A stretch of 37,067 nt of DNA, from positions 1 to 37,067 of the forward strand of contig NZ_PDKC01000027.1 of NCBI RefSeq assembly GCF_004116495.1, given 5' to 3'. The DNA is from Arcobacter sp. CECT 8985. GTDB taxonomy: Bacteria; Campylobacterota; Campylobacteria; Campylobacterales; Arcobacteraceae. The translations under genes and the position numbers were made by a program. Each line of letters opens with the position of its first letter. Position 1 is the first letter of the stretch. This document shows, in pieces, positions 11,488 through 15,890 of this stretch. Under the pieces are notes generated by a model that worked only from the letters and a program-made list of their open reading frames with translations, searched no databases and had not been told where the DNA came from.

Positions 11488-12000
11488 TTATTTTAAAGAG
11501 AGTCTATCATAATTAAAAATTACGTTTTCTGCAATATCCATCATTTTTATATTAATCTTTTTGAATTCATCATTTTTTACTTCAAGTAAAAGCTTGTCAT
11601 ACATATTTGAATAAGGGAACAATGTAAAATATATAAACTCTTTTGAGTTTTTCTCTTTATCTAATTCTTTAAACCAAACAGCTAAAAGTGCAAGATATAA
11701 CATAGCAGGGTTAAATGTAGAGTCTTTTGCAAGATAGTTTGAAATTTCACTATTAATATAATTATAACTTCTTAAAACAGCTTTAATTCTATAATGGTTT
11801 TTATTATTAATGTAATGTTCATTTTCAAATGTAACTGTTTTTATTTGTTTTAATATATCTTCACTTATAGATGTTATATATTTATCTATATGTGTTGGAA
11901 CATCAAAAAGTTTCGCTTCATTATCTTTATAAGATAAAATCAAATCTTTGCAAAACAGTAGTAAAGCTTCAGTTTTTATTTTAGATAAATTTAAAATCAT
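11488..12000 (-). CDS. Conserved-looking hypothetical protein
   Basis: A 170-residue, mostly helical protein with no signal peptide or membrane helix that I can see and no motif I recognise. The middle contains AMLYLALLAVWFKELDKEKNSKEF, probably a buried helix. The gene lies 27 bases upstream of the NFACT gene on the same strand, suggesting co-transcription, and diverges from thrS. A complete frame with normal codon use for this genome supports a real gene; no function is proposed. Confidence 0.6.
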   Translation of the reverse strand: MILNLSKIKTEALLLFCKDLILSYKDNEAKLFDVPTHIDKYITSISEDILKQIKTVTFENEHYINNKNHYRIKAVLRSYNYINSEISNYLAKDSTFNPAMLYLALLAVWFKELDKEKNSKEFIYFTLFPYSNMYDKLLLEVKNDEFKKINIKMMDIAENVIFNYDRLSLK

Positions 12001-12047
12001 TCTTTATTTTACCCAAACTTTATTAATAAATTGTTATTAAGATTAAA

Positions 12048-12070
12048 TTTAAGTGCAATTGCGCTAAAAT
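12048..12070 (+). promoter_or_regulatory. Promoter of thrS-infC
   Basis: TTTAAGT (12048-12054), then ten bases, then -10 TAAAAT (12065-12070) preceded by TTGCGC. The start codon is about 60 bases downstream; the leader holds a short stem AGTATT/AATACT near 12085-12102, too weak to call an operator. Confidence 0.5.
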
Positions 12071-12131
12071 GTAATAAATCTATAGTATTGCGATGAAATA
12101 CTTGCAAAATTTTATAAAATAAAGGAAATTA

Positions 12132-13940
12132 TTGGAACCTATTGGTGTATTAAGTGAAGGTAAAATATATGACCTTCAGACTGCGGAAGCTTTAAATATA
12201 ACTGGTGAGGAAATCAAAAGTGATAATTCTGCTGAATCTTTAGAGATTCTAAGACACTCTTGTGCTCACTTAATGGCTCAAGCTATTAAACAGTTATATC
12301 CAGAAGCAAAATTCTTTGTTGGTCCTGTCGTAAAAGAAGGATTTTATTACGATTTTAAAGTCGATTCAAAGATATCAGAAGAAGATTTGACGACAATCGA
12401 AAAGAAAATGAAAGAGCTAGCAAATGCTAAGCTACCAATTCAAAGATATGAAACGACCAAAGAAGAGATCCTAAAAAAATTCCAAAATGATGAATTAAAA
12501 CAAGCTGTATTAAAAAATATCACAGATGATACTTTAACTATATATAAACAAGGAGATTTTGAAGACTTATGTAGAGGTCCTCATGTTCCAAATACTAGAA
12601 TGATTAGATACTTCAAACTAACAAGAATAGCTGGAGCTTATCTTGGTGGTAATGAAGAAAATGAGATGATTACTAGAATATATGGTATTGCATTTTTTGA
12701 TAAAAAAGAGCTAAATGATTATACAAGAATGCTTGAAGAAGCTAAAAAAAGAGATCATAGAAAATTAGGAACTCAATTAGAACTATTTACATTTAACGAT
12801 GATGTTGGTGCTGGACTTCCTATGTGGTTGCCTAATGGTTCAAGATTAAGAAGTAAATTAGAAAAATTACTTTATAAAGCACATAGAGTTAGGGGTTATG
12901 AACCTGTACGTGGTCCAGAAATTCTTAAAGCTAATATGTGGAAAATATCTGGCCACTATGATAACTATAAAGAAAATATGTATTTTACTGAAATTGATGA
13001 ACAAGAATATGGAATTAAACCTATGAACTGTGTAGGTCATATTCAAATATTTAAAAATGATTTAGTATCATATAAAGATTTACCAAAAAAATTATTTGAA
13101 TATGGTGTTGTTCATAGACATGAGATGAGTGGAGCAATGCATGGATTATTTAGAGTAAGAGAATTTACTCAAGATGATGCACATATTTTTTGTACTCAAG
13201 ATCAAGTTAAAGATGTTATTATTGATGTATTAGAGTTTGTTGATTCATTAATGAAACTATTTGATTTCAAATATGAGATGGAAGTATCAACTAAGCCTAA
13301 AAAAGCAATTGGTGATGATACATTCTGGGAGAAAACAACTAAAGGAATCATGGATGCACTTGATTCTGAAGGTCTACATTACGGTATTGATGAAGGTGGA
13401 GGAGCATTTTATGGTCCAAAAATTGACATCAAAATTTTAGATGCTATTGGTAGAAAATGGCAATGTGGTACGGTTCAAGTTGATATGAACTTACCAAGTA
13501 GATTTAATGTAGAATATATTAACGATAAAGGTGAAAAAGAACAACCTGTGATGATTCATAGAGCCATTTTAGGTTCTTTTGAAAGATTTATTGGTATTCT
13601 TACAGAGCATTGTGCTGGAGAGTTTCCATTTGTTATTGCACCAACTGAAGTTATATTTGTACCTATTGCAGATACTCACGTTGAGTATGCAAAACAACTT
13701 CAAAAAGAACTTTTATATAAAGAGATTGATTCAAAAATCTTTAGTATGAATGAAAGTTTAAACAAAAGAATCAGAATGGCTGAAAAGCAAAGAGTTCCGA
13801 TGATTGTTGTACTGGGAGATGAAGAGGTTCAAAACAACTCAATAGCATTAAGAGACAGAAGAAAGAGAGAGCAGTCAAACATGTCAAAAGAGGAGTTTAT
13901 TTCAATGTTAGAAGAAATCAAAAAAGGATGTGAAATTTGA
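12132..13940 (+). CDS. thrS: Threonyl-tRNA synthetase
   Basis: A 602-residue class II synthetase. The editing domain has HSCAH near the N-terminus and CRGPH (about 143-147), the four metal/proofreading residues of the family. The catalytic domain shows class II motifs and the zinc ligands in [14 protein letters not shown] and MIHRAILGS; the anticodon domain lies at about 500-602. Compared with E. coli ThrRS (642 residues), the N-terminal TGS-like domain is largely absent, as usual in Campylobacterota. The start is TTG at 12132, supported by AAAGGAA upstream and by the absence of a good ATG. The end overlaps infC by four bases. Confidence 0.95.
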
Positions 13941-14473
13941 GTCGAAACAATAAAAAAGACGAAGTTCTAATGAACGAAGACATTAAAGTAAAAGAGGTTA
14001 GATGTACATCTGATGATGGAACTAATTATGGTATTATTTCTACAAAAGATGCACTAGCTGCAGCAGAAGAACAAGGGCTAGACTTAGTATTAATTGCAGC
14101 AACAGCAAAACCACCTGTTGTTAAAATTATGGATTATGGTAAATTTAAATACCAAGAAGAAAAAAAGAAAAAAGAAGCTAAGAAAAAACAGAAAGTTATT
14201 GTTGTAAAAGAAGTAAAATTTTCTGTTAAAATTGCAGAAAATGATATTAACTATAAAGTTAAACATGCAATTGAATTCTTAGAAAAAGGTTACCATGTAA
14301 AATGTAGAGTATTTCTAAAAGGTAGAGAAATGGCTCATCCAGAAGCGGGAGTTGAAGTACTTGAAAAAATATGGCCAATGCTTGAAGACTATGGAGTTAG
14401 AGAAGCTGAACCTAAACAAGAAGGAAGATTTGTAAATATGCAAGTTTTTCCTAAAAAAGAAGAAAAAAAATAA
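13937..14473 (+). CDS. infC: Translation initiation factor IF-3
   Basis: A 178-residue IF-3 with the N-domain ([23 protein letters not shown]), a lysine-rich linker ([13 protein letters not shown]) and the C-domain ([16 protein letters not shown]). It binds the 30S subunit and checks the initiation codon. The start is TTG in a TTGA overlap with the thrS stop, with AAAGGA nine bases before it. E. coli infC uses the rare AUU so that IF-3 can limit its own synthesis; TTG is common in this genome, so the same logic is possible but not shown. An ATG at 13970 is a less likely start, as it would remove residues before the conserved NEDI. Confidence 0.94.
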
Positions 14474-14483
14474 CTACATTATA

Positions 14484-14514
14484 AATAGAGAAGATTAAAT
14501 ATTTCTTCTCTATT
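14484..14514 (+). terminator. Strong hairpin after infC
   Basis: Arms AATAGAGAAGA (14484-14494) and TCTTCTCTATT (14504-14514), 11 perfect pairs, nine-base loop. Only short T runs follow, so it may be a terminator, an RNA-processing site or an mRNA-end stabiliser separating thrS-infC from rpmI-rplT. Confidence 0.6.
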
Positions 14515-14543
14515 CTACTCACTTAATAATAACTTAAGCTTTT

Positions 14544-14575
14544 TTTAAGTAAAATCACTCACTTTTTCATATTAT
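14544..14575 (+). promoter_or_regulatory. Promoter of rpmI-rplT
   Basis: TTTAAGTAAA (14544-14553), a T-rich stretch (14563-14567) and -10 TATTAT (14570-14575) match the three-part promoter described for Campylobacter. The predicted start site is about 25 bases before the rpmI ATG. Confidence 0.55.
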
Positions 14576-14606
14576 GAAAATGCAAATTTAAAGAAAGGAT
14601 TCCACA

Positions 14607-14804
14607 ATGCCAAAGATGAAATCTAATAGTGGAGCTTTAAAGAGATTTAAAGTGAAAAAAAATGGTTCTATCAAAAGAGGATCAGCTTTTAGAAGCCATA
14701 TCTTAACTAAAAAGAGCCAAAAAAGAAAAAGAAACCTAAGAGGTCCACAAACTGTTGCATCTGTAGATAATGCAAGAGTTAAAAAAATGTTAAACCAAGC
14801 GTAA
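14607..14804 (+). CDS. rpmI: 50S ribosomal protein L35
   Basis: A 65-residue, very basic protein beginning [20 protein letters not shown], the standard L35 N-terminus, and containing [17 protein letters not shown]. It is a late-assembly component of the large subunit. AAAGAAAGGA precedes the ATG. It is followed by rplT after a 96-base structured spacer. A 93-codon frame on the opposite strand over this gene is only a shadow. Confidence 0.96.
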
Positions 14805-14814
14805 TTTTTAATAA

Positions 14815-14866
14815 AATTACTTAGTCCCTCCACAATACGGTGGACAAGTTCGATTAAAGTAATCGA
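14815..14866 (+). promoter_or_regulatory. Structured rpmI-rplT spacer, candidate L20-responsive RNA element
   Basis: Three stems can form. A: ATTACTT (14816-14822) with AAGTAAT (14857-14863). B, nested in A: TCCAC (14829-14833) with GTGGA (14840-14844). C: TCGATTA (14850-14856) with TAATCGA (14860-14866), seven perfect pairs with a three-base loop. A and C use the same bases, so they exclude each other. The element lies directly before rplT; L20 is a known autoregulator of this operon in other bacteria. A regulatory switch is an inference. Confidence 0.45.
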
Positions 14867-14900
14867 CACCTAATTAAAAAATGGTAAAGAAAGGAAAAAT

Positions 14901-15260
14901 ATGCCTAGAGTTAAAACTGGTATAGTTAGAAGAAGAAGACACAAAAAAGTATTAAAACAAGCTAAAGGTTTTTTTAGTGGTAGAAGAAAACACTTTAGAA
15001 AAGCTAAAGAGCAGTTAGAGCATTCATTAGTATATGCTTATAGAGATAGAAGACAAAAGAAAAGAGATATTAGAAAACTTTGGATCATTAGAATCAACGC
15101 TGCTTGTAGACTAAATGATATTAACTATTCAAGATTCATGAATGGATTAAAATTAGCTAATATTGAATTAGACAGAAAAATCTTAGCAGATATGGCTATG
15201 AACGATGCAGAAGCATTCGCATCATTAGTTGTAAAAGCAAAAGAAGCACTTGCAGCATAA
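14901..15260 (+). CDS. rplT: 50S ribosomal protein L20
   Basis: A 119-residue protein starting [25 protein letters not shown], the classical basic L20 N-terminal extension, with the globular C-domain [19 protein letters not shown]. It is required early in 50S assembly and, in E. coli and Bacillus, represses its own operon by binding the mRNA. AGAAAGGA lies just before the ATG. Transcription ends at a strong hairpin shared with mobA. Confidence 0.97.
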
Positions 15261-15280
15261 TTAAATTTGCAAAATATATA

Positions 15281-15314
15281 AAAAAGGTAAATAAGTTTTC
15301 TTATTTACCTTTTT
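15281..15314. terminator. Bidirectional terminator between rplT and mobA
   Basis: Arms AAAAAGGTAAATAAG (15281-15295) and its complement (15300-15314) around a TTTT loop. The T tract on the plus side and the A tract (T on the minus strand) on the other make it an intrinsic terminator for both convergent genes. Confidence 0.85.
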
Positions 15315-15890
15315 TTATGCCTTATTAATTAAAGTTAAGGCTTTTTTATAATCTTCTGGTTTATTCAAATTTATAAACTCATCATCATTAAAAAAATCAA
15401 TAATCTTTGTATTTAAATTATTTAATAAATATCCTACTTTATGAAAATCATCATCTAACATCTTTTTAGTTAAAGAAATTATATTACTTGAAAAAACTCC
15501 ACATAAACTGTGTGTTCTTTCAGTTCTAGGCACTGTTACATCAAATCCAATAGATTGATCAATCAAACTTTTTATTGATGAGATTTGCACTAATGGCGTA
15601 TCTACAGTAATAATAAATATTTTATCATCTTCTAATTTATTAAATATTGTATTAAGTCCAACAATTGGAGAGTATATATCATTTTCTTCAATTATTAAAT
15701 CAGCTTCAAAATCAAATTTATTATTTTTACAAGATAAATATATTTTCTTAAAATATGGCTTCAAACGATTGTATTGATATTTTGCTAAAGAAGTTTCATT
15801 TGCAAATGGAAGAAGAGATTTATCTTCTTTCATTCTTGAGCTTTTTCCACCACATAAAATTACACAAGGCAGATCAAATTGTGGTTTCAT
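15315..15890 (-). CDS. mobA: Molybdenum cofactor guanylyltransferase (MobA-like)
   Basis: A 191-residue nucleotidyltransferase. The N-terminus LPCVILCGGKSSRMKEDKSLLPF carries the GTP-binding loop and the catalytic-region Lys, and ITVDTPLV corresponds to the metal-binding D-x-P segment. MobA attaches GMP to Mo-molybdopterin to give the MGD cofactor used by DMSO-reductase-family enzymes (nitrate reductase, formate dehydrogenase), common in Campylobacterota respiration. It starts two bases after leuC, so the two are probably co-transcribed without a functional link. Confidence 0.85.
   Translation of the reverse strand: MKPQFDLPCVILCGGKSSRMKEDKSLLPFANETSLAKYQYNRLKPYFKKIYLSCKNNKFDFEADLIIEENDIYSPIVGLNTIFNKLEDDKIFIITVDTPLVQISSIKSLIDQSIGFDVTVPRTERTHSLCGVFSSNIISLTKKMLDDDFHKVGYLLNNLNTKIIDFFNDDEFINLNKPEDYKKALTLINKA

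Follow-up and report, generated by a model that had tools for sequence, protein, structure and literature searches.

The DNA analysed here, referred to as the window, is a stretch of 37,067 nucleotides from Arcobacter sp. CECT 8985 (contig NZ_PDKC01000027.1). On its + strand lie, in this order, thrS, infC, rpmI and rplT, named from the translations of their open reading frames. The gene for ribosomal protein L35, rpmI, occupies positions 14607-14804 with its stop codon at 14802-14804, and is followed at 14901-15260 by rplT, the gene for ribosomal protein L20, whose reading frame has matches in 41 of 41 relatives and which is presumed to encode both the regulated product and the ligand. The two genes are separated by a spacer of 96 nt, and rplT stands directly after rpmI in all examined members of the order for which both genes are readable. 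PMC9241687 mentions for C. jejuni that rpmI has a primary start site and is co-transcribed with rplT.

Neither a promoter nor a terminator is listed on the + strand of the spacer, and the + strand between 11900 and 15500 holds no terminator-like site. The window contains no tRNA, and a reading of the spacer as a tRNA-like remnant was dropped. Further upstream, infC starts at a TTG codon in the mechanical list of reading frames, with a four-base overlap with the thrS stop codon (13937-13940). By eye, the infC-rpmI spacer (14474-14606) contains a long hairpin (AATAGAGAAGA / TCTTCTCTATT) and, ahead of rpmI, a second inverted repeat that is AU-rich; the infC transcript may end here and an rpmI-rplT transcript begin.

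The minimum-energy fold of 14799-14903 (-18.4 kcal/mol) organises the rpmI-rplT spacer into the hairpins P0, P1 and P2, a short P3 and a P4 of 3 bp. P0 (14801-14820, + strand) is an accessory AU-rich hairpin of 8 bp over the rpmI stop codon, in which GUAAUUUU at 14801-14808 pairs with AAAAUUAC at 14813-14820 (mean pair probability 0.96). The conserved strand AGUCCC (14823-14828) leads into P1 (UCCAC/GUGGA, 14829-14844; pair probability 0.75 in CECT 8985), and its GUCCC recurs in 42 of 43 distinct Arcobacteraceae spacers, L011 being the one without it. Between P1 and P2 runs a conserved unpaired strand, AAGU (14846-14849), which matches 23S rRNA and stands within an AAGUU that is invariant in 20 Arcobacteraceae. 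P2 (UCGAUUA/UAAUCGA, 14850-14866; pair probability 0.91) is separated from P3 by a bulged C at 14867, present in 115 of the 116 distinct spacers parsed by a strict script. P3 (14868-14885) joins ACC at 14868-14870 to GGU at 14883-14885, with 99.5% of cells paired, and AAAG follows. The Shine-Dalgarno sequence of rplT, AAAGGA, lies at 14890-14895, and its GGA (14893-14895) pairs with UCC at 14825-14827 to form P4; the AGUCCC strand may take part in this pairing, or it may echo GGUCCC of 23S rRNA.

The fold of 14800-14880 has a z-score of -3.28, and none of 200 dinucleotide shuffles folds as low. The stretch 14815-14866 holds two Watson-Crick helices of 7 bp; among 500 shuffles, at least one such helix occurs in 6.6% and at least two in 1%. 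Single-sequence folds vary with the chosen ends, however: 14800-14880 yields a GUCC/GGAC variant of P1, and a spacer cut at the rpmI stop retains P2 but neither P1 nor P3. Such folds are not the main support for the element.

According to the original prediction, the spacer contained three stems: a stem A (14816-14822 with 14857-14863) enclosing a stem B, and a hairpin C (14850-14856 with 14860-14866) that competes with stem A for common bases, the whole resembling a two-state RNA switch. The stems exist as stated, B at 14829-14833 with 14840-14844, and A, B and C have 7/7, 5/5 and 7/7 pairs, respectively, all of them Watson-Crick in A and C; that A and C are perfect 7-bp stems with bases in common speaks for such a switch. 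Stem A is complete, however, in only one of 42 distinct Arcobacteraceae spacers, that of CECT 8985 itself. In the same 42 spacers, the seven bases before [A/U]GUCCC form on average 5.19 of 7 pairs with the P2 hairpin, compared with 5.07 for shuffled arms; stem A was accordingly rejected as a conserved alternative stem. In the fold of 14799-14903 its mean pair probability is 0.00025, P0 excludes it, and the best fold that keeps it reaches -12.2 kcal/mol compared with -18.4 kcal/mol when the fold is free. Stems A and B together give -7.2 kcal/mol and P0, P1 and P2 together -15.9 kcal/mol, a difference of 8.7 to the disadvantage of the former. As a conserved feature the two-state switch is refuted, it has next to no credibility otherwise, and chance pairing in an AU-rich spacer best accounts for stem A. 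The comparison with relatives that disposes of stem A strongly upholds stems B and C, which correspond to P1 and P2; P0, P3 and the strongly conserved letters that separate the stems had gone unremarked.

The mean longest Watson-Crick helix of the P0 stretch is 7.3 bp across 42 distinct Arcobacteraceae spacers, compared with 4.3 bp in shuffles, and a helix of at least 7 bp is found in 29 of the 42, with differing sequences; within this family, the only one considered for P0, the observed length is reached by 17% of shuffles on average. P0 may separate the translation of rpmI from that of rplT, or it may protect the mRNA. For P4, the mean duplex energy is -2.37 for a spacer's own partners, -2.13 (sd 0.10) for swapped partners and -1.63 for shuffled 5′ letters; 3 of 300 swaps are as low, a comparison that is confounded by relatedness. 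It was made on 101 of 127 distinct spacers, with a P1 finder that misplaced a few rows (for example L060 and L083), and it omitted unparsed rows, rows lacking a downstream partner or bulge, those in which P2 starts right after AAG, L208 and L215. The support for P4 is weak and suggestive only.

The spacers of the 41 relatives share P1, P2, the AAGU before P2 and the C and ACC after it, and in them GGU-AAAG precedes the Shine-Dalgarno sequence; in Arcobacteraceae, GUCCC stands before P1. AAG occurs twice, before P2 and again after GGY. Covariance models were built in steps from 20 Arcobacteraceae sequences (R1), 39 sequences (R2) and 73 sequences (R3). R1 recovers 39 of the 41 relatives at E <= 0.6, missing L025 and L036, and R2 matches 73 of 74 sources, missing only L025. 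With 39 sequences, 97.3% of cells are paired and the covariation score is 0.537 compared with 0.176 in shuffled alignments (sd 0.014), while slid partners are only 23-47% paired; with 73 sequences, the corresponding values are 94.8%, 0.644 compared with 0.171, and 22-49%. The pairing figures favour the model structure because the alignments were fitted to that structure. Two of five measures applied to the 73 sequences, the number of pairs with double changes and that of further pair types, do not go beyond shuffles (60/500 and 90/500 as high). By helix, P1 has 96.1% of cells paired and double changes in four of five pairs, and P2 has 91.3% paired and double changes in all six modelled pairs. 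In P3, ACC/GGU is replaced by GCC/GGC in seven of the 73 sequences, a compensatory joint change, and the two C-G pairs are present in 73/73 and 72/73. In one spacer, L015, part of the element looks duplicated, with GGACAAGUUCA followed by GGAUAAGUUCA and two copies of AAGUUC.

The taxonomic range was assessed in a sample of 397 genomes of the phylum, every one of them from the order of the window. R2 has exactly one match in 280 of them and R3 exactly one in 320, covering 59 of 68 genera; the latter search served as the positive control for those outside the phylum. The surroundings of 70 R2 matches, namely the 30 best and a further 40 chosen among the matches listed, all read rpmI, element, rplT. 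Of the 77 genomes missed by R3, 50 were inspected: 48 of 49 readable spacers carry the scripted core, one contig starts at rplT, and L223 has the core letters with a shorter P2. Two loci of genus group g64 (L249 and L253) have rpmI-rplT spacers of 251 and 345 nt, in which the core string is kept and insertions occur.

Among 80 named loci, all 13 titled Campylobacterota match R2 at E <= 0.0013, in every case in the rpmI-rplT spacer; the carriers include Aliarcobacter, Sulfurospirillum, Sulfurimonas, Sulfuricurvum and Helicobacter. The other 67 named loci give no R2 match at E <= 1, and 58 of their 63 readable rpmI-rplT spacers are 12-50 nt long. Whole-genome searches with R3 outside the phylum found nothing in 29 genomes or, with stricter filters, in 148 genomes of the phylum to which a Deltaproteobacteria-labelled MAG belongs.

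The element occurs in several layouts, which were counted with a looser script in 156 distinct spacers from 172 loci. The core together with a partner is present in 147 of the 156, in 6 of 1560 shuffled spacers and in none of 63 spacers from other phyla. Most spacers (116/156) have ACC with a GGU downstream in the spacer, and four have GCC with a GGC at the corresponding place; in 20, all from family f10, the GGC that answers GCC lies inside the start AUGGC, and in seven, all from family f15, it lies upstream. Four spacers are without an exact partner, among them L041 and L252, whose GCC could pair with GGU by wobble, and five (L027, L084, L104, L114 and L223) are without the scripted core, although by eye the letters are present with an irregular or very short P2. 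The strict parser left 11 of 127 distinct spacers unparsed. A downstream partner was parsed in 108 of these spacers; GGY begins 9-25 nt ahead of the AUG in 95 of them and inside AUGGC (at +3) in 12; in the remaining one, L208, which is probably misparsed, it starts 40 nt before. Since 107 of the 108 thus have GGY next to or within the start region, a closed P3 would compete with the 30S subunit.

Where the start codon itself supplies the partner, 13 distinct P3 segments were folded. In 11 of them the stem extends to 9-10 pairs, with the AUG in or beside it and the Shine-Dalgarno sequence in the loop (ten segments) or within the stem itself (L098); for L232 and L243 the fold stops at 5 and 4 closing pairs. 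Loop shuffles fold as low in 15% of cases on average, and support for the extended stem beyond its closing pairs is moderate. Ten other spacers that have an AUGGC start but no GCC nearby were skipped in this folding.

In family f15 (L207-L210, L212, L025, L226 and L229), GGC(A/C/T)AAG stands upstream of AAGU-helix-C-GCC and there is no GGC partner downstream; L208, parsed otherwise, is the eighth spacer of this kind and has by eye the same upstream GGCAAAG. Judged by its conserved letters, this is possibly the unpermuted form, with the same order as 23S rRNA. GGC/GCC together with P2 does not appear in the minimum-energy folds of L207 and L212. The GGC is upstream and the Shine-Dalgarno sequence is by eye free in f15, so that one blocking mechanism misfits some families.

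The letters that hold the element together recur in 23S rRNA. In E. coli, 23S rRNA reads G1002 G1003 U1004 CCCAAAGU1012, then a helix starting at the pair C1013-G1149, then C1150 A1151 C1152 C1153, and the organism's own 23S rRNA reads CUAAGGUCCCAAAGUUACAUCU ... AGAUGUACACCGAAGC. The mRNA reads AAGU-[P2]-C-ACC ... GGU, with the same core letters: AAGU at 14846-14849 is the counterpart of A1009-U1012, P2 at 14850-14866 that of the helix starting at C1013-G1149, and the bulged C at 14867 that of C1150. A descriptor of the mRNA motif (AAGN, helix, C, RCC and GGY, arranged in rRNA order) finds a single match in E. coli 23S rRNA, at 1002-1153, and a single match in the organism's own 23S rRNA, at the homologous place, each with a 7-bp helix. 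We take the E. coli segment 1002-1153 to be the helix 40-41 junction and thus the L20 site. L20 is described as contacting the helix 40-41 junction of 23S rRNA (PMC6962249), and known L20 leaders as keeping two G-C pairs and an AA dimer (PMC7247131). Like the 23S site, the mRNA element has two G-C pairs in succession together with an AA dimer, and we infer which A's form the latter. With a helix of 7 bp, the descriptor occurs in 5/300 and 0/300 dinucleotide-shuffled 23S sequences, and with one of 4 bp in 63/200 and 46/200 block-shuffled ones; the rRNA-like letters are few and at 4 bp common in shuffles, so the weight of the likeness lies in its falling on the L20 site.

The small number of rRNA-like letters, and the position between two genes, would also suit a conserved RNA for another ligand, such as L35, another ribosomal protein or an RNase, that sets the L35:L20 ratio and resembles rRNA by coincidence. 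The likeness coincides, however, with a single place in 23S rRNA, presumably the one bound by L20, and with the gene that encodes L20, and the changes between ACC/GGU and GCC/GGC preserve it; we regard the other-ligand reading as very improbable. A caution that rRNA-like similarities of such leaders might arise by chance is voiced in PMC7247131 and speaks in its favour.

There are differences between the mRNA and the 23S junction. GGU lies 5′ of AAGU in the rRNA but 3′ of ACC in most mRNAs, so that the motif is circularly permuted; in addition, the mRNA has P1 inserted before AAGU and a second AAG after GGY. Across the order, one 23S L20 motif may have been rebuilt in permuted mRNA forms, with the f10 start AUGGC contributing the two G-C pairs to be gripped by L20 and the Shine-Dalgarno sequence in the loop, and with f15 representing the rRNA order; we give this scheme an even chance.

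Structure, covariation, conservation, position and core identity with the rRNA place are computational results. Both the location on the rplT mRNA and the covarying structure agree with the class of L20 autoregulatory leaders that act by rRNA mimicry, and we put at roughly 0.8 the probability that the spacer RNA is an autogenous, L20-responsive translational operator of rplT. We infer L20 binding, repression and the blocking step along the following lines. The spacer RNA would fold into P1, P2 and P3 around conserved unpaired letters, such that AAGU, a helix, a bulged C and an ACC paired with GGU reproduce the L20 site of 23S rRNA, while the closing strand of the permuted motif ends inside the ribosome-binding region of rplT. 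Once L20 exceeds the free 23S rRNA, it would bind this mRNA copy and clamp P3, perhaps also P4, thereby covering the Shine-Dalgarno sequence, and the closed form would block 30S initiation on rplT. The site lies after rpmI, so L35 would escape direct repression.

An L20 operator could also act on mRNA stability, processing or downstream transcription rather than on 30S binding, for instance with P0 and a U-rich stretch as an attenuator. Some P0 hairpins do precede a run of U, and the Bacillus L20 leader is described as using attenuation (PMC6097659), but P0 is AU-rich, weak and tested in Arcobacteraceae only, the + strand has no terminator-like site over 11900-15500, and the conserved part reaches up to or into the start region. 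These points make action at such a level unlikely.

Known L20 systems share some of these properties. Rfam 15 has no family at its gathering threshold in the window; at E up to 10 no family overlaps the spacer, and at E up to 1 the spacers of 19 relatives are likewise free of overlapping matches. Membership in the Firmicutes family RF00558 (L20_leader) was considered and set aside, as the window holds no match. This leader, described as binding L20 at a two-helix junction (PMC6097659), presumably has the same ligand, but it lies upstream of infC and ends in a terminator. None of 21 genomes passes its cut-off of 58.7 bits, compared with seven of eight Bacilli in a positive control, and none of five weaker matches is in an rpmI-rplT spacer. 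Below the cut-off, RF00558 matches at the 3′ end of rplT (G004:C14:23328-23413 and G003:C1:245853-245941), probably on terminator-like hairpins.

The E. coli operator, a pseudoknot and a hairpin before rpmI, likewise has L20 as its repressor, the translational level as its point of action and rRNA mimicry as its basis (PMC10931766, PMC6962249), but it represses rplT through coupling, whereas the element described here follows rpmI, stands directly at rplT and has another scaffold. The E. coli layout, with a site upstream of rpmI and joint repression, does not apply: the element is downstream of rpmI, and matching genomes have one model match each. A search of the E. coli infC-rpmI-rplT region for the core string gave seven loose matches.

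The original prediction also invoked L20 autoregulation by a site between the genes, as a design different from those of Escherichia and Bacillus. The first part stands in the form of a conserved, covarying RNA element between rpmI and rplT whose best reading is that of a site for L20 autoregulation, although not of switch design. As for the second, the E. coli and Bacillus sites do precede the co-regulated genes (PMC10931766, PMC6097659), unlike the present one, but its location has published parallels. The candidate RNAs HMP2_39 (Alistipes) and HMP2_3043 (Treponema) are described as lying immediately before the L20 gene (PMC8040213); they come from other phyla and measure 49 and 57 bp. A Deltaproteobacteria L20 r-leader candidate (Eckert and Weinberg 2020, PMC7247131) shares the two G-C pairs, the AA dimer and a single ribosomal protein gene downstream, printed as rpsT, and its description gives it another scaffold. 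With L20-upstream candidates thus described for other phyla in PMC8040213, and perhaps PMC7247131, the position by itself has precedents. The literature searched, mainly open-access papers, yielded nothing on the scaffold, its range across the order, the permutation or the involvement of the start codon, and no report of the Campylobacterota rplT element; an earlier report may exist.

L20 is needed early in the assembly of the large ribosomal subunit. If the proposed reading is true, nearly the whole order of Campylobacter, Helicobacter and Arcobacter would control it through a compact RNA that is absent from Rfam 15, which would add another scaffold for L20 and a natural circular permutation of a protein-binding RNA. 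The design would be a simple one, with the start codon of rplT as part of the binding site of its own repressor, and it would explain how L20 could be controlled separately from L35 within a two-gene operon.
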